A DNA stretch of 34,510 nt from an uncultured Leptolyngbyaceae cyanobacterium (GTDB lineage Bacteria > Cyanobacteriota > Cyanobacteriia > Leptolyngbyales > Leptolyngbyaceae): assembly GCA_938023035.1 (NCBI GenBank), contig CALIDI010000057.1, forward strand, positions 1 to 34,510. The letters are read 5' to 3'. Position 1 is the first letter of the stretch; each line of letters opens with the position of its first letter. Shown here piece after piece: positions 22,181 through 34,510 of this stretch. A program made the position numbers and the translations under genes. A model generated the notes under the pieces. The model made no database searches. It was not told the origin of the DNA and worked only from the letters and a program-made list of their open reading frames with translations.

Positions 22181-23488
22181 ATGACGAAACAAATTGGTCG
22201 GCGTGAATTTCTGTTCTTCGGTTCTGCCACAGCAGGCACCTTGCTGCTCAAAGCCTGCACTCCTACCGCCACAACACCTGATGCTTCACCAACGGCAGCA
22301 GCACCAGCGGCAGCAGGAGGCGATGCCGTCAAGGTAGGTATTCTCCACTCCCTCAGCGGCACCATGGCTATCTCTGAAAAGAGTGTGGTAGATGCAGAGA
22401 AGCTCGCTATTAAGGAAATTAACGCAGCCGGTGGAGTCCTCGGTAAACAGATCGAGGCTGTTGTTGAAGATGGGGCCTCGGATTGGCCCACTTTCAACGA
22501 AAAAGCGAAAAAGCTAATTGAGCAAGATAAAGTAGCCACCGTGTTTGGATGCTGGACTTCTGCAAGCCGCAAAGCAGTGCTGCCGACCTTTGAGTCTCTC
22601 AACCACATGCTCTGGTACCCCGTGCAATATGAGGGGCAAGAGTGCTCCAAAAACATTTTCTACACCGGCGCAGCACCCAACCAGCAGATTGAGCCATCGG
22701 TCGAGTGGTTGCTGGAAAAGTACAAAGGGCAGCCTTTCTTCCTGGTCGGGTCTGACTATGTATTTCCCCGAACCGCGAACACCATCATCAAAGCCCAGTT
22801 AGAAGCGAAGGGTGGTAAGGTCGTCGGTGAAGACTACATCCCTCTGGGTGGAACAGAAGTGACCCCCATCATCTCCAAGATTAAGCAGGCATTGCCAGAC
22901 GGTGGCGTGATTTATAACAGCTTAAACGGAGATAGCAACGTCGCCTTCTTTAAGCAGTTGCAGGGCGCAGGCATGGGGCCTGACAAATATCCTTCGATGT
23001 CAGTCAGTATTGCGGAAGAAGAAGTGAAGGCCATTGGGGTGGAATACTTGAAGGGTCACTATGCGGCCTGGAACTACTTCCAAACCGTCGATACCCCAGA
23101 AAGTAAGAAGTTTGTTGAGGCCTTCAAGAAGGAATATGGGGATGACCGAGTGGTCAATGACCCAATGGAAGCCGCCTACATCATGGTTTATCTCTGGAAG
23201 CAGGCGGTTGAGAAGGCCGGAACAGTTGATGATCTGGAGAAGGTGAGGGCCGCAGCCATTGGTCAAAAACTGATGGCCCCTGAAGGGGAAGTGACCCTGG
23301 AAGCCAACCACCACCTATCAAAAGTAGTGCGGATTGGGCAGGTGCGAGATGATGGCCTGTTTGACATCGTTTCTGATACAAAGACTGCTGTCAAGCCAGT
23401 GCCCTGGAACCAGTTTGTGGCTGAAACTAAGGGGTTTGCCTGCGACTGGTCTGACCCTGCCAAGGGTGGCAAATTCAAGATCAGCTAA
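22181..23488 (+). CDS. urtA: Urea ABC transporter substrate-binding protein
   Basis: A 435-residue periplasmic receptor for urea. The N-terminus has a twin-arginine pair (RREFLFFG, R7 R8), a hydrophobic stretch and a lipobox LLKAC with the acylated cysteine C26, so it is probably exported by Tat and anchored as a lipoprotein. A linker rich in Ala, Pro and Thr follows to about residue 48, then the type I periplasmic-binding fold ([52 protein letters not shown]), which is typical of UrtA. It is the first gene of the urtABCDE cluster, 88 nt downstream of an NtcA-type promoter. Length is normal for the family. Confidence 0.97.
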
Positions 23489-24009
23489 CCTACTTTGCTG
23501 ACGAGCCGCATCGATTGAGCGCAATGAGTAGCTTTGGTCAGAAAGCTGAGGACAAAACTCAGTGATCAAACGTTGATGTTGAGCAGGCTTTTTGACTTTC
23601 CATCGCTATAGTTTCTACAGGAATGGTCATCTCCCTTTAGGAAGCAGCAAACCACTGAGTCAGGGTAGATTTATCTGATTTTTATGATGCAGATGTCAAT
23701 GGAGATAGAGACATTTGAGAGTAGAAGTCTAACAATCTACCCTAATTTATTTTGTCTCAGACAATCAGTAACGAAATCCAGGCTCTAAGTGAGCGGTTCA
23801 CGACCCTTTAGTCGTTTGTCTAATGAAACTTGGTAAACCATTGGTAGCCCTGAATGTTTTTGCAAAAGATCGCAAGCTAGCCGTTTTAATCTTTGAAAGG
23901 GTGTAAAACTCGCAATTTAAGGATGTTTTGTGGTTTTCGACATCCTGGTTACAGCTTTATCTGTTGTCAACGTTCAAGATAGACTCGTTCAGTATCAGGA
24001 GAGAAGGCA
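23489..24009 (+). other. 521-bp gap between urtA and urtB
   Basis: Unusually long for the inside of this operon. A hairpin AGCTTT-GGTCAG-AAAGCT lies at 23530-23547, 41 nt after the urtA stop, without a T run. No second NtcA site matching GTA-N8-TAC was found and no small gene is evident. The hairpin could protect the 3' end of a separate, abundant urtA message. Confidence 0.45.
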
Positions 24010-25164
24010 TTGACTGCAATTCTCGAATCTTTTTTTGGGGGCTTGAGCATTGCCTCTGTACTCTTGCTAGCTGCTCTGGGCTTAGCCATTGTATTTGGTT
24101 TGATGGGTGTCATCAATATGGCCCATGGGGAACTGATGATGCTGGGGGCTTACACCACCTTTGTGGTGCAGAATGTTCTCAAGGGTACCCCGCTGGAATC
24201 TGTCTACATTTTGTTTGCCCTAGTGACGGCTTTTATAATGGCGAGCCTGCTGGGGATTATCCTAGAGCGAGGGGTGGTACGTTACCTCTATGGTAGGCCA
24301 TTGGAAACGTTGCTGGCCACCTGGGGTGTCAGCTTGATTTTGCAGCAATTGATTCGCAGCATTAGTTGGCAGCTAGCGACGGGAATTGTGCTGTTCAGCC
24401 TGCTCTTTTTTGGTACGCTCTGGTTTTTCTCGCGGCGTGGCGATTTTGAACGGTTTCGGGGCTGGTTTTTGGGCGTGATGTTGCCCATTTCTGCAGCGAT
24501 CACCTGGTTTGTTTCTGACCTGCTGGGCAAAACTCATAAAATGCCATTCACCCGTCCCTGGTTTGGAACCCAGGGGGTGGATGTCACCGCGCCTTCCTGG
24601 CTGCGGGGCGGGGTGCCGATTGTGCCAGGTTATCAACTGCCGTTGACGCGGCTATTTATCATTTTGTTGACCGCAGCTTGCCTGCTAGGAGTCTACTGGT
24701 TCCTGAATAAAACCGTCTGGGGACTGCGGATTCGGGCGGTGACCCAAAACCGAAATATGAGTGCCTGTTTGGGCATTCCCACTCAGAAGGTAGATGCACT
24801 CACTTTTGCGATTGGTTCTGGTCTGGCGGGCGTTGCTGGCTGTGCCGTGAGCTTGTTGAGTTCGGTTAGCTCTAACCTGGGCCAGCAGTACCTGGTTGAT
24901 ACCTTCATGGTGGTGGTGGTGGGTGGAGTTGGCAAACTGATCGGCAGTATTGCCGCCGCCACTGGGATTGGGTTGCTCAATTACGTGATTGCCGCTAATG
25001 CCTTGGGGCCATTGCTGAGTTTTAGCCCTGCCTTGACCGCGATTAGCGAATTTTTTGCCAGCGGTCCAATGGCGAAAGTCTTTGTGTTTGCCTTGATTGT
25101 GTTGTTTCTCCAAATCCGTCCGGCGGGGTTGTTTCCTCAAAAGGGGCGCACGGTAGATGCTTAG
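24010..25164 (+). CDS. urtB: Urea ABC transporter permease UrtB
   Basis: A 384-residue inner-membrane permease of the branched-chain amino acid (LivH) type. It is hydrophobic throughout, with about nine predicted membrane spans. The N-terminal pattern GLAIVFGLMGVINMAHGELMM and the LRIRAVTQNRNMSACLGI segment before the last spans are typical of UrtB; the latter is the region that contacts the ATPases. The start is a TTG at 24010 with AGGAG about eight nt upstream (tcaggagagaaggca), which decides the start. It forms the channel with UrtC. Confidence 0.95.
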   Translation: MTAILESFFGGLSIASVLLLAALGLAIVFGLMGVINMAHGELMMLGAYTTFVVQNVLKGTPLESVYILFALVTAFIMASLLGIILERGVVRYLYGRPLETLLATWGVSLILQQLIRSISWQLATGIVLFSLLFFGTLWFFSRRGDFERFRGWFLGVMLPISAAITWFVSDLLGKTHKMPFTRPWFGTQGVDVTAPSWLRGGVPIVPGYQLPLTRLFIILLTAACLLGVYWFLNKTVWGLRIRAVTQNRNMSACLGIPTQKVDALTFAIGSGLAGVAGCAVSLLSSVSSNLGQQYLVDTFMVVVVGGVGKLIGSIAAATGIGLLNYVIAANALGPLLSFSPALTAISEFFASGPMAKVFVFALIVLFLQIRPAGLFPQKGRTVDA

Positions 25165-25208
25165 GAGGAGTGTGAGATGGTTTGTCTTATTGGATGGGGG
25201 AATCGTTT

Positions 25209-26405
25209 ATGACGGTTAAAGCGATTGAGCCTGCTGTGGAACCGCGGGCGCTGGCAAAGGCGCGGCAACGCCGCTGGTTTTGGTTAGAGGTTGCTTTAGT
25301 CGTTGTCTGTGCCCTGCTGCTGTTGCTGGTGATTCCTGCTATCCTCAATGCGGTCGGGCAGGGGGTGCGGGTGAATCAACTGGGCCGCTTCCTGGCATTG
25401 GCGATCGCTGCCCTGGGCATCGATCTGATCTGGGGCTACACCGGGTTACTAAGCCTGGGCCATGGCATCTTCTTTGCCTTGGGGGGTTATGCCCTTGCCA
25501 TGTACCTGGAGTTGCAGGCAAAAGGGGGCGGCACTCCTGATTTTTTCTCCCTCTACGGGGTCACTGATCTCCCCACTTTCTGGCGGCCCTTTAACTCTTT
25601 GCCCTTTACCATCATCGCCATCTGGTTGATTCCAACCCTGGTGGCCATTGCCCTGGGTTATCTCGTCTTCCGCAATCGGATTCGTGGAGTTTATTTCTCA
25701 ATTCTGACCCAGGCAGCTTTGATCGTCTTCTTCAACTTTTTTAACGGTCAGCAAAAGCTCATTAACGGTACCAACGGCCTCAAAACCTCAACTTCACCTA
25801 TCTTCGGAGTGCAGGCAAGCGCCCCCCGCGCCCAGGCAATTTTTTATGCCCTCAGCGTCGTGTTTCTGGTGCTGGGCTATGTTGTGTGTCGCTGGCTCAC
25901 CAGTGGGCGCATGGGGCGCATGTTGGTGGCCATTCGAGATGATGAGCCACGGGTGCGGTTTTCTGGCTATAACCCCACTGGGTTCAAGGTGTTTGTGTTT
26001 GCGGTATCGGCAGCCCTCGCCGGAATTGCGGGGGCACTATTCACAGTGCAGTCGGGTATTATTACGCCCAGTTCTTCCCTCAGCACTGCCTTCTCAATTG
26101 AAATGGTGATTTGGGTTGCGGTCGGCGGTCGGGCGACCCTGGTGGGTGCGATTTTTGGCACCTTACTGGTCAACTTTGCCAGAACCCTTTTGAGTGAGCA
26201 GTTTCCGGCAGTATGGCTGTTTTTCCAGGGGGCGCTGTTTCTCTCTGTTGTAACCATTCTGCCCAACGGCATTATCGGCTGGCTTCGTAGCAGTGGCTTT
26301 GCTTTGGGGCGATCGCTCTTTGGCAGGCGTCACCCAGTTGCTACCTACCCCAGTCTTGAAACCGATCCAGATGTGGAATATGAGCGACAAAATCTTAGAG
26401 ATTGA
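25209..26405 (+). CDS. urtC: Urea ABC transporter permease UrtC
   Basis: A 398-residue second permease, LivM type, partner of UrtB. Seen: multiple membrane spans, the conserved GYTGLLSLGHGIFFALGGYA near residue 80, and the cytoplasmic coupling segment MLVAIRDDEPRVRFSGYNP. The open frame extends to a TTG at 25182, but GGGGGA seven nt before the ATG at 25209 supports this start. It lies 44 bp after urtB and its last 26 nt overlap urtD, which indicates translational coupling. Confidence 0.95.
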   Translation: MTVKAIEPAVEPRALAKARQRRWFWLEVALVVVCALLLLLVIPAILNAVGQGVRVNQLGRFLALAIAALGIDLIWGYTGLLSLGHGIFFALGGYALAMYLELQAKGGGTPDFFSLYGVTDLPTFWRPFNSLPFTIIAIWLIPTLVAIALGYLVFRNRIRGVYFSILTQAALIVFFNFFNGQQKLINGTNGLKTSTSPIFGVQASAPRAQAIFYALSVVFLVLGYVVCRWLTSGRMGRMLVAIRDDEPRVRFSGYNPTGFKVFVFAVSAALAGIAGALFTVQSGIITPSSSLSTAFSIEMVIWVAVGGRATLVGAIFGTLLVNFARTLLSEQFPAVWLFFQGALFLSVVTILPNGIIGWLRSSGFALGRSLFGRRHPVATYPSLETDPDVEYERQNLRD

Positions 26406-27132
26406 GCACCTGACCGTCAGCTTTGACGGGTTTAAGGCCATTACAGACCTGAATTTTAGCCTGGATTTCGGGGAATTGCGGGTAGTCATTGGGCCAAATG
26501 GAGCCGGCAAAACCACCTTTATGGATGTAATTACGGGCAAAACCAAGCCAACTGAAGGCAAGGTGTACTTCAAAGGCAAAGATATCCTGCCCTACCGGGA
26601 ACATGAAATCGCCCAGATGGGAATTGGCCGCAAGTTTCAAACGCCAAGAGTTTACCTAAAGCTGACTCCCCGTGAAAATCTAGAGCTTTCCTGCGTCCGC
26701 CACAAAAATGTTTGGTCAGTCCTGAGGGGCAAAGCATCGAGTGAAGAACGGCACACCGTCAATGATTTACTCGAAACGATCGGCCTGACCAGTCGGGCCG
26801 ATATTCCAGCAGAGTTGCTCTCCCACGGAGAAAAACAACGGCTGGAGATTGGTATGTTGGTGGCCCAATCTCCCGATTTGCTGCTGATAGATGAACCCGT
26901 TGCTGGTTTAACCGATGAGGAAACCGAAGCCGTTGGTCATCTGCTAATGCAATTGGCCGAAACCCATTCGATTATGGTGATTGAGCATGACATGGAGTTT
27001 GTGCGTCAGATTGCCCGCAAGGTAACGGTGCTGCACCAGGGAACCGTTTTGTGCGAAGGCTCAATGGATGAAATACAAAACGACCCGCGGGTGATTGAGG
27101 TCTATCTTGGCAAGGAAGATGAAGATCACTGA
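26380..27132 (+). CDS. urtD: Urea ABC transporter ATPase UrtD
   Basis: A 250-residue ATP-binding subunit (LivG type). Walker A GPNGAGKTT at 38-46, the signature LSHGEKQRLEIGM (the usual second glycine position is histidine, as is common in UrtD), Walker B LLLIDEP and the switch histidine in VIEHD are all present. I start at the ATG at 26380 (MSDKILEIEHL), the family position, although the frame opens earlier inside urtC; an in-frame ATG three codons upstream is the only near alternative. It forms the ATPase pair with UrtE. Confidence 0.95.
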   Translation: MSDKILEIEHLTVSFDGFKAITDLNFSLDFGELRVVIGPNGAGKTTFMDVITGKTKPTEGKVYFKGKDILPYREHEIAQMGIGRKFQTPRVYLKLTPRENLELSCVRHKNVWSVLRGKASSEERHTVNDLLETIGLTSRADIPAELLSHGEKQRLEIGMLVAQSPDLLLIDEPVAGLTDEETEAVGHLLMQLAETHSIMVIEHDMEFVRQIARKVTVLHQGTVLCEGSMDEIQNDPRVIEVYLGKEDEDH

Positions 27133-27267
27133 GAAGGGGTGAAAACAGTTCTATGATACGGAGCTTTTTGCCAGAGTTCTCTCAGTAAAATTTTGCTAGG
27201 TTGCCGACTCTCAAACTCAAGCACTTTTCTTCTCTGGAAATGAATTCTTAAAAATTTGGAGTCTATT

Positions 27268-28026
27268 ATGTCTCAAGCCAATGGATCGGTTGCCACATCT
27301 CCCGCTGCGCTGGATACCCAGCCAATGCTCGACATTCGTGGCTTAAATGTTTACTACGGCGAGAGTCATATTCTCCGAAATGTCGATATGAGTGTGCAAC
27401 GGGGGCAGATGGTTTGCCTGATCGGGCGCAATGGGGTCGGTAAAACCACGATGATGAAAACCATTATCGGTCTCTTGTCGCCTCGTAGCGGCTCAATTGT
27501 GTTGGAGGGTAAGGAAATTACCCGCCTTTCTCCAGACCGCCGAGCTAAGGCCGGGATTGGCTATGTTCCTCAGGGGAAGGATATTATTCCACGGCTAACT
27601 ATTCGAGAAAACCTACTGCTAGGGTTAGAGGCGTTGCCACCAGGGAGTGCGAAGAGCCAGACTATTCCCGATGATATTTTTGAGTTGTTCCCCGTGTTAA
27701 AGACGATGTTGAACCGTTTGGGCGGTGACTTGAGTGGCGGGCAACAGCAGCAGTTAGCGATCGCCCGCGCAATGATGGGTCGCCCTCGGCTGCTCGTGCT
27801 GGATGAACCCACCGAAGGAATTCAACCCTCGATCGTCTTAGAGATTGAAGCCGCTGTGAAGAGCATTATCCGGGAGACAGGTATTTCCGTTTTGCTAGTG
27901 GAGCAACATTTGCACTTTGTGCGGCAGGCGGACTGGTACTATGCCATGCAAAAGGGCGGCATTGTTGCCTCTGGGCCTACGAAAGATTTGAGCAAGGATG
28001 TGATTCAAGAATTTTTGGCGGTGTGA
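27268..28026 (+). CDS. urtE: Urea ABC transporter ATPase UrtE
   Basis: A 252-residue ATP-binding subunit (LivF type). Walker A GRNGVGKTT at 53-61, signature LSGGQQQQLAIARAMMG, Walker B LLVLDEPTEG and the switch histidine in LVEQH are intact. The ATG at 27268 has GGAG six nt upstream (27258-27261) and yields about 19 extra N-terminal residues, rich in Ala and Ser, before the family start motif MLDIRGLNVYYGESHILRNV. Starting at that internal Met (27325) would give the usual length but has no Shine-Dalgarno. It follows urtD by 135 bp and ends the urt cluster. Confidence 0.94.
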   Translation: MSQANGSVATSPAALDTQPMLDIRGLNVYYGESHILRNVDMSVQRGQMVCLIGRNGVGKTTMMKTIIGLLSPRSGSIVLEGKEITRLSPDRRAKAGIGYVPQGKDIIPRLTIRENLLLGLEALPPGSAKSQTIPDDIFELFPVLKTMLNRLGGDLSGGQQQQLAIARAMMGRPRLLVLDEPTEGIQPSIVLEIEAAVKSIIRETGISVLLVEQHLHFVRQADWYYAMQKGGIVASGPTKDLSKDVIQEFLAV

Positions 28027-28352: not shown

Positions 28353-30134
28353 CTAGTGTTGATGAACCTGAAGCCAACTCTCCAAACTTGCCAGTAGCCA
28401 GAGTTTCACACCATAGCGCCGCCAAGTATCACCACGGTAGGCGAGCCAATCGCGCATCAGTGACTGATTGAGGTAGGGGGCGATCGCCGCTTGTCGATTC
28501 AGCAGCAATGCCTTGGCTTCGCGCTGCCAGTGTTTTTGAAACCCAATTTGCACCGGCACCATCATCCCACTCTTGGGGCGGTTCACAATGGCATGGGGTA
28601 ATAAATCTGCTACTGCTTGCTTAAGAACCGCTTTTTCTTGAACGCCAGAGAGCTTGTATTCTGGTGGGATTTGCATACTCAGATGAACCATACGCGGATC
28701 GAAGAGGGGCGATCGCCCTTCTAAACCCACTGCTCGCATCAGGTTACTGACCTTCGTCAGAATATGATCCGCCCCCTTGAAACGGATATTGATCGCCATC
28801 AGACGATTCAGATAATGCAGGTCTGAATTAAGCCAACCCTCAAAGTAGTAAGGTTCTGACTGTATCACTTGCCAGATCTCTGGCTGGAGCAGTTGCGGCA
28901 AGTCAGCGGCGCACTTTTGAAAGCTGATCAGGTAGGCCTGAACTGCGTCTTGTTGGTTAAAACTGCCATATATACTCTGGATCAGCATGGGCTGATTCTT
29001 GGGGCCACCGAAGCACGGATCACCCCCTTCACCGTTTAACACCACGTTCACGAATTGCTTTGCGATTCGTCCCAGCAGCAAGTTTGGAACTGTGAGCGGA
29101 TCGCCAATGGGATTATCCAAGTGGGCCATAGCCTCAGGCAAAAATGCCCACAGGTCAGACAGGGAAATTTCAAGGATATGGTGCTGGGTCTGACAATGCT
29201 GCGCCACCAGTGAGGAGAATTCCAGTTCGTTCGGGTATGGCTCGCCAAAGTGAACCGAAAAGGTATGTACAGGTGAATGATGGAGCTGACAGGCAAGTGC
29301 TGTCACACAGCTTGAATCAATTCCGCCTGACAGAAAGCAGCCGACGGGTTCATGTTTGGGCAAGGCATCCCTCACGGTCTTCTCCAGCAGGTGGCGCAAT
29401 CGCTGGCTATGCCATGCAATGGGTTCTGTGGCTCCCACAATCTGCTCTTGCAAACTCCAATAAGACTGGAGTTGACCGCTGGGCAGTTGTATCGTTGTGC
29501 CGGGGAGCAGCTTTCGTACCCCTTTCCAAAGAGTGCGCTCACCGGGTACAAAGGCACAACAAAGGTAGTCCCGCAGGGCAATCTCGTCTATCTCTTGGTG
29601 GTGGTATGGCAGCAGCGATCGCAGGCGAGGGGCAATCCAGCGAATGGCTCCATCGGTGGTGTAATACAGGGTCTGTGCACCAGCAGGGTCGCGACCAAGG
29701 GCTAGCGTTTGGCGATCGCGATCATAGACCGCAAGGGCAAAGGTTCCGACAAGCTGCTGCCACGGAGCGAGGGCATCTTCTGCGCCGAGGCGCTCCCAAA
29801 GGTGGGCAGCCAAGTGTAAGCGATTCTCCGGCTCCTCAGTTAGCCCAAGCTGGTCAGCTAAAGCGGTCGGTTGACACCACCAGGCAGTTCCAATAATGAC
29901 CCAGCGCGCTGAGGGGCTGAAGACCGGAATCGCATCGAGCGAGGGTGAAGATGAAGATGAAGGAGATGCAGCGAAAAGAGCAATTTTGCCATCTTGCCAG
30001 TCCGGTCGTTCTGACAGTGACTCGACGGCTCCAAAGGCAATTCTCCAAGCTGGCGTCACTTCTGGAGCAAGCAGGGGAAATCTATAAGGTATGGGTTGAA
30101 AGAAAGACTGAAACTGACCTCTGGGGAGCCGCAT
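28353..30134 (-). CDS. Asparagine-synthetase-like amide ligase without glutaminase cysteine (1)
   Basis: A 593-residue homologue of class B asparagine synthetase. The N-terminal region (about 1-240) keeps the glutaminase fold (GTFALAVYDRDRQTLALGRD, then QTLYYTT) but there is no Met-Cys start, so it cannot hydrolyse glutamine by the usual N-terminal nucleophile. The C-terminal region has the ATP-pyrophosphatase loop SGGIDSS at 269-275, NGEGGDPCFGG in the place of the AsnB SGEGADELFGG, RSPLFDPRM, and NRPKSGMMVPV with the conserved lysine. This is the pattern of beta-lactam synthetase and lasso-peptide cyclase, which adenylate a carboxylate and join it to an internal amine. I start at the ATG at 30134; a TTG four codons upstream is possible. 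It is divergent from the plus-strand cluster at 30502. Substrate unknown. Confidence 0.85.
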   Translation of the reverse strand: MRLPRGQFQSFFQPIPYRFPLLAPEVTPAWRIAFGAVESLSERPDWQDGKIALFAASPSSSSSPSLDAIPVFSPSARWVIIGTAWWCQPTALADQLGLTEEPENRLHLAAHLWERLGAEDALAPWQQLVGTFALAVYDRDRQTLALGRDPAGAQTLYYTTDGAIRWIAPRLRSLLPYHHQEIDEIALRDYLCCAFVPGERTLWKGVRKLLPGTTIQLPSGQLQSYWSLQEQIVGATEPIAWHSQRLRHLLEKTVRDALPKHEPVGCFLSGGIDSSCVTALACQLHHSPVHTFSVHFGEPYPNELEFSSLVAQHCQTQHHILEISLSDLWAFLPEAMAHLDNPIGDPLTVPNLLLGRIAKQFVNVVLNGEGGDPCFGGPKNQPMLIQSIYGSFNQQDAVQAYLISFQKCAADLPQLLQPEIWQVIQSEPYYFEGWLNSDLHYLNRLMAINIRFKGADHILTKVSNLMRAVGLEGRSPLFDPRMVHLSMQIPPEYKLSGVQEKAVLKQAVADLLPHAIVNRPKSGMMVPVQIGFQKHWQREAKALLLNRQAAIAPYLNQSLMRDWLAYRGDTWRRYGVKLWLLASLESWLQVHQH

Positions 30135-30247
30135 ATCTCGGGGCAAACCGATACAATACTAGGTATTTGGATAGCCTCAGGTTACCCGTTCAGCGTGCAT
30201 TAGTCACTGGTTAGAACCTGGTTAGAGAGAGCCTGTCACCGTTGCAG

Positions 30248-30501: not shown

Positions 30502-31113
30502 ATGTCTTCCAGAATTACCAATGAACAGCTTCAGCAGATTGTTAGAGAAGTTGAGCGACTGAAAAAAGAGGAGCAGGCAACGCTGAGCCGGGAAGAGGTG
30601 AAGCAAGTGCTAGAGGAGCTGAGCTTGCCCACCGATCTCCTGGATCAGGCGGTTATGCAGGTTAACCTGCGCTTGAAGAGAGGAAAGTTGCGCCAGACTG
30701 GCTTGATGGCTGGCTCACTTTTATTGGTCGGCATCGCTGCGATGTTATTTTGGCTTCAACAAAAGCAGGCAACGCTGGCCCAGGTAAGAGCTGTGCAAGA
30801 CCGCATTACCCTGATGCAAACTGATGGCGGCAATCTCAATGTGGTCAATCGGCAGCAGTCGCCAGAGGTGTTTTATCAGGTGACGCTGGATCAGGCACCC
30901 GTGGGAGATCGCCTCACGTTGAGCTGTAGCTGGACTGATCCGGCCGGGGTCATTGTCAAGCAGAACCGGTACGAAACTAAGAAGATTACGACACCTGTTT
31001 GGAATACGCATTGTCGGATGCCGCTGGGTTCTAGTACAACCCCCGGAACTTGGACTGTGGAAATGTTTTTGGGCGATCGCTCTCTGGAGCGTGCCCAGTT
31101 TCAGGTTCAGTAG
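30502..31113 (+). CDS. Single-span membrane protein with beta-rich C-terminal domain
   Basis: A 203-residue protein of unknown function. Residues 1-62 are charged and helical (QQIVREVERLKKEEQATLSR), possibly a short coiled coil. Residues 67-87 form one membrane span (GLMAGSLLLVGIAAMLFWLQ) flanked by basic residues on the N side, predicting a cytoplasmic N-terminus. Residues about 100-203 form a beta-rich, immunoglobulin-like domain outside the cytosol, with two cysteines (C142, C171) that may form a disulfide. The ATG at 30502 has a strong GGAGG at 30494-30498. It is the first gene of the plus-strand ligase cluster and ends 29 bp before the chosen start of the next gene. Confidence 0.75.
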   Translation: MSSRITNEQLQQIVREVERLKKEEQATLSREEVKQVLEELSLPTDLLDQAVMQVNLRLKRGKLRQTGLMAGSLLLVGIAAMLFWLQQKQATLAQVRAVQDRITLMQTDGGNLNVVNRQQSPEVFYQVTLDQAPVGDRLTLSCSWTDPAGVIVKQNRYETKKITTPVWNTHCRMPLGSSTTPGTWTVEMFLGDRSLERAQFQVQ

Positions 31114-31142
31114 GGATGCCAACTAGGAGACTTACCCCGCTG

Positions 31143-33029
31143 ATGAATACGCCCCATGCATTTGTCGGTTGCTGGGGCTGGGAGCAGCCAGATGTCTTAA
31201 AAAGTCAGCTAGCCCAGCATTTGGAGAAGTGCTCCCTGCCTAAATCGGAGATCCGCTGGGGGAAACAGGCTTCTTCTTGGGCTAGCTCTTCTGTTGCCAA
31301 ACCCTGCGGCTGGGCAATTGCCTACATCAATCCTCGCACCTCCCTATCCTTTCCCTATCCATCTCACGCTACATTTCACGATCTAGATGCCAGCATTTCT
31401 TTGTTGCCTGAGTCTTCTTCTTACTTGTCTGCGCTGTGTGCAGGTGGAATCTTAACCAATCTACAACCGGATGGTTCCCTTCTCCCTGATGCTTGGGTAA
31501 GACTGGTGCAGCATGCTGACGGTAGCGCAGGACTGGAACTCGGGCGCGATTGCTTTGGACGCGTGCCTCTCTACTGGCAGCAGCGACAGCAGGTTCTCTG
31601 GTTTTCGTCTCGGTTGCAGCTTTTGCTAGCAGAGTTACCCGTAGACATTGATGCAGCCGCCCTCCATACCTATACTTGCTTTTCCTATGTGCCTACGCCC
31701 CTGACTCCTGTTCAGGGCATCCAGGCGATTCCCGCAGGGATGCAGCAAACCTGGCGACTGGATGAAACAGGGACGCTGGAATATGTCCAGGGGCGATCGC
31801 AGGAATGGCAGGAGGCAACCGACCAAATTCACGATGAGCCGACAGCCGTTAGGACGCTCCAGACCCTCCTCAAAGACGCTATCTGCCGCCAGACTGCCGA
31901 CCTTAAGGACGAACCCGTTGGCGTGTTGCTGTCGGGGGGCTTAGATTCTTCTATCGTCGCTGCGCTGCTCGTGCAGCTGGGAATGCGGGTAACAGCCTAT
32001 TCCCTAGATTTCGGTATTCCTGAATACTCAGAACTGGACTATGCCCGGTGCGTAGCCGATTCCCTGAACATTCCGCTGGTGACGGTGGATGCCTCCGCAA
32101 AACAGATTCGTCGGGCGATCGCCCCCACTGCGGCGGCGCTGGATCTGCCCTTTGGCGACGGGGTGACGGTTCCCCTGTTTTTACTGAAGCAGCGAGCTGC
32201 TCAGGATACATCCGTCATCTTCAATGGAGAACACGGCGATCAGTTGTTTGCAGGGTGGACGAACAAGCCGCTGATTGCAGCCGGTGTTTATGGCCATTTG
32301 GCAACGGATCACCCAGTTCCAGAAGCCGACTTTTATCAGCACTATCTGAAAACGTTTCATCGGCTTGCAGGGTATGAGCATCACGTTTTTCAGCCCAGTT
32401 TCCTGGCGCAGCACGAACTCATCAATCCGGTTGAATGGCTACAGGAGTCCCTCGATCCGCAGTTTTCGACGGGTATTCTGCATCGGCTGCGGCGGGCTAA
32501 TTTAATGCTCAAGGGGGCCCAAAATATCCAGCCCCGTGCGACGGCTTTGGCCTTTGCCCACGGCTTGCACGTGCGATCGCCCTTCTGTGATGTGCCACTA
32601 GCAGAATGGACATTTCGCCTATCTGGGGAACTGTGCCTGCGAGGTTCTTGCGAGAAATACATCCTCAAGCGAGCTGTTGAGAATTGGCTGCCGCCTGAAA
32701 TCGTCTGGCGCACCAAGCGCGGCATGGGTGTTCCTTTAACCTTGTGGTGCTTCCATGATTTATGGAGAGAGCTGGGCATCTGGCTCAACCCGTCCGTTTT
32801 GCAATCCCAGTCTCACTTCCGGCCTAATATTGCCACTCAAATGGTTTCAGGTTCCTTGGGTGGTGCAATTCAAGGGCGGCGAATTGGTGAGTGCCTGTGG
32901 CTGTTGTTGATGTGGCAAGCTTGGCGCAAAGCCGTGCTCAAAGAGGCAGATCTTCCCCATTCCTGGAATCATCCCTTCTGGCTTCCTGCTCTACTCTGGC
33001 GGAGGTTCAACCGATGGCAGAATTCTTGA
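31143..33029 (+). CDS. Asparagine-synthetase-like amide ligase without glutaminase cysteine (2)
   Basis: A 628-residue second AsnB homologue, only distantly similar to the one at 28353. The N-terminal region keeps RDCFGRVPLYW from the glutaminase fold but begins MNTPHAFVGCWGW, with no cysteine at position 2; the nearest cysteine, C10, is inside a strand. The synthetase region has SGGLDSS at 264-270, FNGEHGDQLFAG, RSPFCDVPLAEW and WRTKRGMGVPL, so ATP-dependent carboxylate activation should be possible. Start choice is uncertain: the ATG at 31116, two nt after the previous stop, would add nine residues; 31143 fits the family N-terminus better, with GGAG about 13 nt upstream. Its 3' end overlaps the next gene by 16 nt. 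Acting without glutaminase, it likely uses another amine donor. Confidence 0.85.
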   Translation: MNTPHAFVGCWGWEQPDVLKSQLAQHLEKCSLPKSEIRWGKQASSWASSSVAKPCGWAIAYINPRTSLSFPYPSHATFHDLDASISLLPESSSYLSALCAGGILTNLQPDGSLLPDAWVRLVQHADGSAGLELGRDCFGRVPLYWQQRQQVLWFSSRLQLLLAELPVDIDAAALHTYTCFSYVPTPLTPVQGIQAIPAGMQQTWRLDETGTLEYVQGRSQEWQEATDQIHDEPTAVRTLQTLLKDAICRQTADLKDEPVGVLLSGGLDSSIVAALLVQLGMRVTAYSLDFGIPEYSELDYARCVADSLNIPLVTVDASAKQIRRAIAPTAAALDLPFGDGVTVPLFLLKQRAAQDTSVIFNGEHGDQLFAGWTNKPLIAAGVYGHLATDHPVPEADFYQHYLKTFHRLAGYEHHVFQPSFLAQHELINPVEWLQESLDPQFSTGILHRLRRANLMLKGAQNIQPRATALAFAHGLHVRSPFCDVPLAEWTFRLSGELCLRGSCEKYILKRAVENWLPPEIVWRTKRGMGVPLTLWCFHDLWRELGIWLNPSVLQSQSHFRPNIATQMVSGSLGGAIQGRRIGECLWLLLMWQAWRKAVLKEADLPHSWNHPFWLPALLWRRFNRWQNS

Positions 33030-34261
33030 CCCACAATTCTATGTTTGCTCAAGACTCATTTGCTCAGACACTGGCTCAAGACTTACTAGAGACCTATGGG
33101 TCACCGTTGTATGTGTATGAGGGCGATCGCCTGTGTCATACCCTGCACCACATCACTCAAGCTTTTGAGTATCCCCACACCCACTTTCACTTTGCTAGCG
33201 TCACCAATGGCAACGTGGCCTTGCTGCAAATGATTCGAGGGGCCGGGTGGGGCCTCCATGCCAATACCCCAGGGGATGTGTTTTTGGGACTCACAGCCGG
33301 TTTTCATCCCGACCAAATCGTCTACAGCGGCAGCAACCTCAACGCCGTTGAAATGCAGCAACTGCGGGATTGGGGCGTGACAACGCTCAATTTAGACAGC
33401 CTATCGCAGCTAGAACTTTGCTGCAAAATCTATGCTGCAAGCACAGCATCCATCGACCCCGACGGTCTGCGGTTGGGACTGCGCCTCAATGTGCCAGAAC
33501 TGACGGGAGAGAGTCGCATCGGTGTGCGTCCAGAAGAATTGCCAGCGGCGATCGCCCTCACCCATCAATGGGGCTTGTGCCTGACGGGTGTTCACTTCTA
33601 TCGAGGCACAGGCACTAATGCAACCCAAGCCTTTACGCAAGTGATTGACCGCGTGATTGCTATCGCCCAAACCCTACCCGACTGGCGCTATCTTGACTTT
33701 GGCGGGGGCTTTGGCTATCCCTATCGGCATGGCGGAGCGGCGTTTGATTGGCCCGCGTTTGGTGCTGAAATGACCCAAGCGTTGCAAACGCTCAACCGAC
33801 CAACCGAGCGACCCATCGAGTTAATCATTGAGCCAGGCAGAGCAGCGATCGCTGGATGTGCCACCTTGCTGACGCGCGTGGTCTCGGTCAAGTGGCAGGG
33901 CGATCGCCAAATTGTGGGAACCGACACCACCGTGGCTAATCTGTCGGTTCCTTCAGTTCACGGCGGCTACCGCGAAATCCGTGCCCTTAGCCCTTCTCAC
34001 ACCTCAACCCTTTACTCCACAGATGTTTGCGGAAACACCACCTACTCCCGCGACTATCTCGGTCGCCAATGCCCACTGCCCCAACTCGAAATTGGTGACA
34101 TTTTAGCCATCCTTGACGTCGGAGCCTACGGTTATGCCATGTCTTCCCATTTTCTACATCGCCCCCGCCCAGCAGAGGTGTTGCTAGAGGGTAGTTCTCA
34201 CCGACTGATTCGCCAGCGAGAAGATTATCAAGTCCTCATCCGCAACCAGATTTTTGTATAA
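33014..34261 (+). CDS. Fold-III PLP decarboxylase homologue lacking the Schiff-base lysine
   Basis: A 415-residue protein related to diaminopimelate/ornithine-type decarboxylases (alanine-racemase barrel plus beta domain). The motif that normally carries the PLP lysine (YAxKAN) reads FASVTN, placing V63 at the lysine position; no nearby lysine could replace it. Other sites are kept: VHFYRG (for HxGS), DFGGGFGYPY, IEPGRAAIAG, STDVCGN with the catalytic-loop cysteine, and DVGAYGYAMSS plus RPRPAEVLLEG. Loss of one residue while the rest stays conserved suggests a changed activity or a binding role instead of decay. ATG at 33014 chosen because GGAGG at 33001-33005 is eight nt upstream; the frame opens earlier, inside the ligase gene. 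Overlap of 16 nt with the ligase indicates coupled translation. Confidence 0.85.
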   Translation: MAEFLTHNSMFAQDSFAQTLAQDLLETYGSPLYVYEGDRLCHTLHHITQAFEYPHTHFHFASVTNGNVALLQMIRGAGWGLHANTPGDVFLGLTAGFHPDQIVYSGSNLNAVEMQQLRDWGVTTLNLDSLSQLELCCKIYAASTASIDPDGLRLGLRLNVPELTGESRIGVRPEELPAAIALTHQWGLCLTGVHFYRGTGTNATQAFTQVIDRVIAIAQTLPDWRYLDFGGGFGYPYRHGGAAFDWPAFGAEMTQALQTLNRPTERPIELIIEPGRAAIAGCATLLTRVVSVKWQGDRQIVGTDTTVANLSVPSVHGGYREIRALSPSHTSTLYSTDVCGNTTYSRDYLGRQCPLPQLEIGDILAILDVGAYGYAMSSHFLHRPRPAEVLLEGSSHRLIRQREDYQVLIRNQIFV

Positions 34262-34287: not shown

Positions 34288-34510
34288 ATGAAATGTATTC
34301 AATGTGGTACGGATAGTGGTTATTCAGAACGCAAGGACAACAACTACCGCTGCCCCAAATGCCAACATCCATTTGCTTTTGAACCCATCCAAATGGGAAA
34401 CCTCCGTTTTACGGATGGCTTTTTTGAAAAGGCGATCGCTGACCTTTCTGCCAATAATACCCTCTACTTTACGCCGCAGCAATTTTCCTACTGGCTCAAT
34501 CACAGATTAC
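34288..34510 (+). CDS. Zinc-ribbon protein, 3' end outside window
   Basis: Partial: 74 residues are visible and the frame is still open at the last base. It begins MKCIQCGTDSGYSERKDN; C3, C6, C22 and C25 form a CxxC...CxxC zinc ribbon. A segment LRFTDGFFEKAIADLSANNT and LYFTPQQFSYWLNHRL follow. This start resembles larger cyanobacterial conserved hypotheticals with an N-terminal zinc ribbon; function unknown. AGGAG at 34276-34280 is seven nt before the ATG, and the gene lies 26 bp after the decarboxylase homologue, so it is probably the fourth gene of the plus-strand cluster. Confidence 0.75.
   Translation, partial: MKCIQCGTDSGYSERKDNNYRCPKCQHPFAFEPIQMGNLRFTDGFFEKAIADLSANNTLYFTPQQFSYWLNHRL

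Follow-up and report, generated by a model that had tools for sequence, protein, structure and literature searches.

An old and fixed loss of the PLP lysine in a decarboxylase-like protein of a conserved cyanobacterial gene unit

Diaminopimelate decarboxylases (LysA, TIGR01048) are the closest described relatives of the protein considered here, which we call c0. It is encoded at 33014..34261, on the forward strand, of a 34,510-nucleotide stretch (the window from here on; contig CALIDI010000057.1 of assembly GCA_938023035.1) from an uncultured Leptolyngbyaceae cyanobacterium, where it is accompanied by four other genes, c1, c1', c2 and c3. By its scores against PF02784, PF00278 and TIGR01048, c0 is a lysine-less homologue, 415 amino acids long, of the decarboxylases with an alanine-racemase fold (fold type III). 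LysA is its best sequence match, and both have in common the two-domain fold, the Gly loop and the motifs EPGR and GAYG. They differ in that c0 lacks the lysine that binds pyridoxal 5'-phosphate (PLP), lacks the catalytic Cys, has Tyr where LysA has His and scores below the LysA cut-off.

Other members of the fold provide further terms of comparison. The type III decarboxylases associated with carrier proteins or exosortases (TIGR03099 and BtrK, PDB 2j66 and 7ru7) have the same fold as c0 and, among lysine-bearing proteins, some encoded beside acyl-carrier genes share with it a GT motif and the replacement of the His by Tyr. However, these decarboxylases keep the PLP lysine and fall in a separate group of the tree. 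Antizyme inhibitor (PDB 4zgz), an inactive homologue of ornithine decarboxylase, resembles c0 by analogy, as a non-enzymatic member of the fold that has been retained for a partner role. The pattern of losses is the reverse, since passages of PMC3543441 describe antizyme inhibitors as having lost PLP contacts while mostly keeping Lys and Cys. The sequence match of c0 to 4zgz is weak (E 1.9e-4), and the loss of PLP contacts that marks antizyme inhibitors was not found in c0, where the Gly loop, E273, R276 and Y372 are all kept. YggS/PLPHP, a PLP homeostasis protein that is not known to catalyse a reaction, has a barrel of the same fold type as c0 and no second (beta) domain. It is absent from the 45 PDB matches that phmmer gave for c0. 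Wild-type YggS has the lysine, unlike c0, and the likeness lies in its lysine mutants: K36A variants are described in PMC9601805 as holding PLP non-covalently in the pocket in crystals.

The codon at 33200..33202 (forward strand) is GTC and puts V63 at the position of the PLP lysine. In the phmmer alignment to PDB 2p3e, V63 in 'FASVTNGN' stands opposite the PLP Lys of LysA in 'YAVKANFN'. A first-pass annotation of the window, made from the sequence alone, had reported this open reading frame (ORF) and this replacement, and translation and alignment confirm both. Diaminopimelate decarboxylases were the top PDB matches of c0 (2p3e, E 8.7e-40). Both domains of the superfamily were detected above the Pfam gathering scores, PF02784 with 75.8 bits (23.4 needed) and PF00278 with 57.6 bits (23 needed), and the phosphate cup and the Glu contacting the pyridine nitrogen are in place, the Schiff-base lysine being the feature that is missing. 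Scores fell below the curated cut-offs of the NCBIfam models for lysA (TIGR01048, 241.1 bits for c0 and 244.7 for the Gloeothece orthologue, cut-off 297.9) and for the XrtA-associated decarboxylase (TIGR03099, 100.1 bits, cut-off 478.45), and no family model in the NCBIfam scan named the c0 branch above its cut-off. The source genome contains three PF02784 matches: the c0 gene, a separate ordinary LysA with Lys and Cys at C27 (L002), and one at C15, in a frame of 676 amino acids, which is probably an arginine decarboxylase.

We have looked for the same replacement in other genomes. Among 97 related genomes, including the source genome, 22 had a match to c0 at E 1e-30 or better, one of them, in G072 (L023), being an ordinary LysA with 31% identity. 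A c0 profile run over a sample of 386 genomes of the phylum gave matches in 36 at E 1e-40 or better, one again being an ordinary LysA with Lys (G125, L088), and a scan of genome contigs with a single c0 protein gave three loci. L056, L064 and L069, which are duplicates of the window, as well as L037 and L042, were left out of the counts. Of the 59 rows in the table, three are ordinary LysA with Lys (L088, L002 and L023) and two do not include the site (L087 and L090); the remaining 54 all have Val (54/54). Two of these proteins, L085 and L086, come from another class of the same phylum and carry Val in YAVVCN and YAIVCN. Val is found as well in the homologue of Gloeothece verrucosa PCC 7822 (WP_013335014.1), which is located on a plasmid and annotated as 'decarboxylase'. 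Since every row covering the site has Val, V63 is not a strain mutation or an error; the loss of the lysine in the c0 clade is fixed and old. The annotation had proposed to see whether close homologues carry Val or Lys, and within the clade all rows have Val and none has Lys. No relative of c0 was found among 185 pattern matches in viral contigs.

Rhizobial plasmids encode homologues that are more distant. At the lysine position these have Met, and Tyr and Thr replace His and Cys in them as in c0. The one from Mesorhizobium huakuii (WP_280515984.1, annotated as 'alanine racemase') is 34% identical to c0 of the window, and the one from Sinorhizobium meliloti GR4 (WP_015241380.1, annotated as 'diaminopimelate decarboxylase') is 39% identical to the Mesorhizobium homologue. 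In the rhizobial plasmid clusters (L106, 7962-9155; L112, 6941-8047) two radical S-adenosylmethionine (SAM) genes lie beside the Met-type protein. The larger radical SAM gene of L106 (Mesorhizobium) resembles ApyD, an enzyme of ribosomally synthesized and post-translationally modified peptides, with 298 bits (below the cut-off of 750). It is possible that these are peptide-modification clusters.

The loss could also be followed in a tree built with 13 of the 55 Val rows, the three Met rows and 25 Lys rows, these last being those met in the searches and not an exhaustive sample. Three trait columns were removed, and two sequences were omitted, that of M. huakuii 7653R, whose match falls into four pieces and whose frame is broken, and that of M. 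loti CP050294, which is 100% identical. A single branch parts the 16 lysine-less from the 25 lysine-bearing rows, with ultrafast bootstrap (UFBoot) and SH-like approximate likelihood ratio (SH-aLRT) values of 100/99, and it was recovered in 100% of 200 bootstrap trees. The LG+G4 tree with all columns gives the same split (SH-aLRT/UFBoot 99.4/99). Several terminal branches are long, and the program warned that a long-branch effect may account for where the Met rows join. The lysine was lost on one branch and not in many separate events, and this lysine-less branch spans two phyla.

That c0 is a decaying pseudogene, or that Val at this site is a local mutation or an artefact of sequencing, has a practically negligible probability. 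There is one genome with true decay (G452, L090), but elsewhere the 54 Val rows are found in open frames and selection on c0 is purifying, the ratio of nonsynonymous to synonymous substitution rates (dN/dS) being 0.10-0.34 over 11 close c0 pairs. Besides, no gene of the unit is better conserved than c0: where all five are present, at 14 loci, its mean identity was 67%, against 61% for c1', 57% for c1, 50% for c3 and 48% for c2. For the clade as a whole we have rejected decay, strain mutation and error on the uniform Val and these dN/dS values.

The 16 lysine-less and 25 lysine-bearing rows were then compared residue by residue, with the roles of the PLP-contact residues taken from what structure papers describe (PMC7857480, PMC11866407); the coordinates in this paragraph are all on the forward strand. 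At the PLP-lysine column the lysine-less rows have Val (13) or Met (3) and the others always Lys (25/25). T343 (34040..34042) stands where the catalytic Cys, contributed by the other subunit, would be, in the alignment of 'VCGNTTYSRD' with 'IVGPICETGD'. Thr is found here in 52/52 rows of the clade and in 16/16 lysine-less rows, and Cys in 24/25 lysine-bearing ones. The annotation had listed the loop cysteine among the residues kept, and in this it was mistaken: the Cys probably meant is C339 (34028-34030), which aligns with V or A beside the loop glycine. Y196 (33599..33601), which the annotation did not mention, is at the position of the ring-stacking His, with Tyr in all 16 lysine-less rows and His in 19, Tyr in four and Phe in two of the 25 others. 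R346 (34049..34051) is a residue gained by the lysine-less branch, with Arg in 16/16 lysine-less rows and G, I, N, M or V in the 25 lysine-bearing rows. The three motifs that the annotation had also given as kept are indeed all there, with their PLP-contact residues: GGGFG (residues 230-234, 33701..33715), the glycine loop that forms the PLP phosphate cup; EPGR (273-276, 33830..33841), in which E273 contacts the pyridine nitrogen and R276 the phosphate (PMC7857480, PMC11866407); and GAYG (370-373), whose Y372 (34127..34129) is a phosphate contact. G230-G232, E273, R276, Y372 and also D347, the Asp of the Cys loop, are retained in 16/16 lysine-less rows. Several genomes among L046-L054 have low-complexity in-frame insertions in two loops of c0 (residues ~143-150 and 325-334), with the active-site motifs unaltered.

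With both the lysine and the catalytic Cys gone, ordinary decarboxylation by c0 is very unlikely. Here the 54/54 Val rows bear out the annotation, which had argued that an internal aldimine could not form at the usual place and that c0 is thus not an ordinary PLP decarboxylase. An ordinary enzyme could survive if the aldimine were formed on a different lysine, and the text of PMC9601805 describes YggS without its main lysine as able to bind PLP through others. In c0 the candidate would be K293, the only invariant Lys (52/52 clade rows). But K293 is also Lys in 23/25 lysine-bearing relatives and so is no substitute for the one lost, no other Lys is invariant and the catalytic Cys is missing as well. 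We have rejected a replacement lysine on these grounds and find this explanation hardly credible; the sequence gives no support to another lysine at the PLP aldehyde, a point that the annotation had raised.

The reading that we tentatively favour, to which we would give a little less than an even chance, is that c0 is a repurposed B6-pocket protein, without internal aldimine, acting as a non-covalent ligand-binding partner of AsnB-like proteins. With Val or Met at the lysine position, no internal aldimine would be formed at the usual place. The pocket would most likely bind, without a covalent bond, a B6 vitamer (PLP, pyridoxamine 5'-phosphate (PMP) or a pyridoxyl adduct) or another ligand of this kind with a phosphate group, and c0 would work as a ligand-binding or positioning subunit of c1, the AsnB-like protein whose gene overlaps its own. 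The substrate of c1 may be the C-terminal tail of c2. The annotation had offered binding of PLP or of a PLP-amino acid adduct, a scaffold role for the ligase or different chemistry; of these, the phosphate and pyridine-nitrogen contacts kept in 16/16 rows speak more for the binding of a ligand than for a pure scaffold. Since YggS lysine variants keep PLP and antizyme inhibitors show the opposite pattern, we prefer a protein that holds a ligand to one with a new chemistry and, still more, to a scaffold.

A new chemistry would mean that c0 is still an enzyme, one working with PMP, or with PLP bound as the external aldimine of an amine that a protein or peptide carries. Tyr196, Thr343 and Arg346 would then be its new catalytic residues. 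We regard this as unlikely, although it is the most serious of the alternatives. Conservation in c0 is highest in the active-site loops, with 70/115 invariant positions in the 52-row clade against 45/300 elsewhere (the loop borders were picked by us from family motifs), and the replacements are common to two phyla, as would be expected of a site that was re-specialised and not of a dead one. The two radical SAM genes beside the rhizobial members, the larger Mesorhizobium one being ApyD-like, point the same way, and the fold relatives BtrK and MccE use carrier- or peptide-bound substrates, as PMC7857480 describes. However, no PMP-dependent member of this fold was found in the literature searched, and in eukaryotic ornithine decarboxylases the lysine is described as essential for both the exchange step and decarboxylation (PMC7857480).

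The genes around c0 form with it one conserved genetic unit. The commonest order is c3, c1, c0, c2, and c1' is often also present. In the window, c3 (30502..31113, forward strand) codes for a protein of ~205 amino acids with an apparent single membrane segment, judged by eye, and no confident family. It is followed on the same strand by c1 (31050..33029, with a likely start at ATG 31143), which is asparagine-synthetase-like, with the PP-loop SGGLDS. The overlap of c0 with an upstream ligase-like ORF, noticed in the annotation, is real and covers 16 bases (33014-33029). Downstream, c2 (34288..34510, forward strand), a zinc-ribbon/membrane/Toprim-like protein, is truncated by the end of the contig; its orthologues end in Phe-Gly. 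On the reverse strand, c1' (28353..30146) codes for a second, divergent asparagine-synthetase-like protein of the same gene family as c1. Adjoining the unit, at 22181-28026, are genes for a periplasmic binding protein, two permeases and two ATPases, which by Pfam are an ATP-binding cassette transporter of the branched-chain-amino-acid or urea type.

Over 42 loci, c1 is found immediately 5' of c0 on the same strand in 36. The six that deviate are L043, which reaches the contig edge, L086, where c1 is on the other side, and L044, L085, L096 and L097, with no c1 beside c0. On the same strand c2 follows c0 at 40/42 loci, c3 is upstream at 34/42 and c1' lies within the stretch at 22/42. In the two remaining cases for c2 (L048 and L049), it is not near c0 but elsewhere in the same genome. 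In the 386-genome sample, all 35 genomes with c0 have c2 (35/35, a count that takes in G206, whose c0 lacks the N-terminal half, and G452, where c0 and c2 are both decayed). Among the 351 genomes without c0, four had a c2 match: a remnant of 46 positions and three c2 + c1' pairs (L124, L125 and L126, in G099, G110 and G127), all from one genome family and with no c0, c1 or c3 beside them. Matches to the c0 profile in these three genomes reached 97-125 bits, the range of ordinary LysA. The c2 of these pairs also ends in DFG. Perhaps the unit arose from such a c2 + c1' pair as its ancestral core. In G452 fragments of all five genes remain at the same locus, every one broken, and this joint decay argues for a single function.

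The proximity of c0 and c1 would also suit a pure pseudoenzyme, a scaffold or regulator that has lost cofactor binding and controls c1 or c2 through its dimer fold in the manner of antizyme inhibitor. The gene overlap, c1 directly upstream at most loci and the fused c1-c0 frame of one genome are in its favour, and inactive homologues of the fold exist, as PMC3543441 describes. Against it, a scaffold would have no obvious reason to retain the Gly loop, E273, R276 and Y372 in 16/16 rows, and antizyme inhibitors are the reverse in what they keep and lose, so that we consider this role improbable. The fused frame is that of G206 (L087, 8103-9959), where c1 and the C-terminal half of c0 are joined and the half with the V63 site is missing.

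The described enzymes closest to c1 and c1' are TsrC, ScdTA and PesC, asparagine-synthetase-like enzymes that make C-terminal amides or nitriles of peptides, with which they share an Asn_synthase domain with the PP-loop SGGxDS, found in 37/37 c1 and 20/20 c1' (57/57 ORFs). The counts refer to ORFs of at least 450 amino acids, 10 shorter AsnB-like pieces being excluded. The differences are in two places. Like the glutamine-dependent asparagine synthetases, c1 and c1' have the PP-loop, but the N-terminal catalytic Cys is absent; no 'MC' was found in the first 80 residues of the 57 ORFs, whose starts are inferred. Thus the ligase-like partner that overlaps c0 is itself unusual. The second difference concerns the Glu-Tyr dyad, described in the preprint PMC13060819 for PesC, TsrC, ScdTA, AsnO and AsnB. 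At what is probably the corresponding site, placed by the AsnB motif, c1 has GDQLFxGW (37/37, two by inspection) and c1' has GDP[CN]FxGP (20/20). On their sequences, then, c1 and c1' probably lack the dyad of the characterised asparagine-synthetase-like amidating enzymes. The c1 of G133 (L086, 10250-11962) starts with MSGICG, with Ser in place of the glutaminase Cys of MCGI, and may represent a stage on the way to losing the glutaminase.

In c2 the layout is a CxxC...CxxC zinc ribbon, a hydrophobic part and a Toprim-like domain. PF21180 (Toprim-like) scored 29.8 bits in L032; in L035 its 20.8 bits fell short of the cut-off (24.1), and L085 gave no match. The Phe-Gly C-terminus is present in 43/44 c2 ORFs of more than 330 amino acids, 36 of these ending in [DE]SFG, once six pieces shorter than 330 are excluded. 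Only L033 departs from this, and its sequence is a draft in which one base is ambiguous. The tail ahead of Phe-Gly is variable. L036 has three tandem copies of c2. PesC, TsrC and ScdTA are described as acting on the C-terminal carboxylate of peptides (PMC13060819), and this known activation makes the c2 tail a candidate substrate.

Several observations weigh against c0 as a ligand-holding partner of c1. Tyr at position 196 is also found in 4/25 lysine-bearing relatives, so that by itself it is no mark of lost catalysis. The retained phosphate-site residues could be structural, and YggS K36A in solution also bound PLP through other lysines, according to PMC9601805. The bond with c1 is not strict, as c0 is not tied to c1 in L044, L085, L096 and L097, which have none beside it, nor in L086, where it is on the other side. 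The rhizobial Met-type relatives adjoin radical SAM genes and not AsnB-like ones, and the c2 + c1' pairs in three genomes without c0 show that this pair is independent of it. With the glutaminase Cys absent and the Glu-Tyr dyad probably absent, an activity of c1 and c1' of their own is doubtful. The AlphaFold2 model of c0, from a four-row alignment (the window and L032-L034), had a mean predicted local distance difference test (pLDDT) score of 55, with residues 275-415 below 50; a Foldseek search with this low-pLDDT model gave LysA, ornithine, arginine and lysine decarboxylases and BtrK, and backs the barrel only. Finally, what c0 binds, its contact with a partner and the c2 tail as substrate are parts that we infer, next to a lysine loss, its age and a co-conservation that we have observed.

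A wider and more speculative proposal, which we think improbable, is that the unit is a so far undescribed system for the modification of protein C-termini. The AsnB-like proteins, lacking a glutaminase, would activate the Phe-Gly carboxylate of c2, and c0 would present an amine as nucleophile (PMP itself, perhaps, or an amino acid bound to PLP), safe from capture by a free lysine. If so, the loss of the lysine would be an adaptation that allows a PLP-fold protein to keep an amine adduct unconverted and pass it on, and the rhizobial Met-type relatives would do an analogous job beside radical SAM enzymes that modify peptides. With regard to defence, the only match of five unit proteins (three of them from Gloeothece) to the PADLOC anti-phage models was a weak one of c1 to QueC (23.3 bits). 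In the titles and abstracts of open-licence literature we found no description of the c0 branch or of the gene unit. We regard c0 as a variant form within a fold family that is already known, and the whole unit may be new.

This family is defined, among other features, by its PLP lysine, and here is a branch that has dropped it together with the Cys and yet keeps the phosphate and pyridine sites. Being built as a decarboxylase, lysine-less and strongly conserved, c0 probably has a role other than ordinary decarboxylation. The database labels of lysine-less members ('decarboxylase', 'diaminopimelate decarboxylase' and 'alanine racemase') therefore probably mis-assign their function. The presence of the branch in two phyla makes it a natural test of what the fold can do without covalent anchoring of its cofactor, and the co-occurrence of AsnB-like proteins with a B6-fold protein lacking the PLP lysine and with a protein whose Phe-Gly end is fixed makes the hypothesis of C-terminal modification directly testable.

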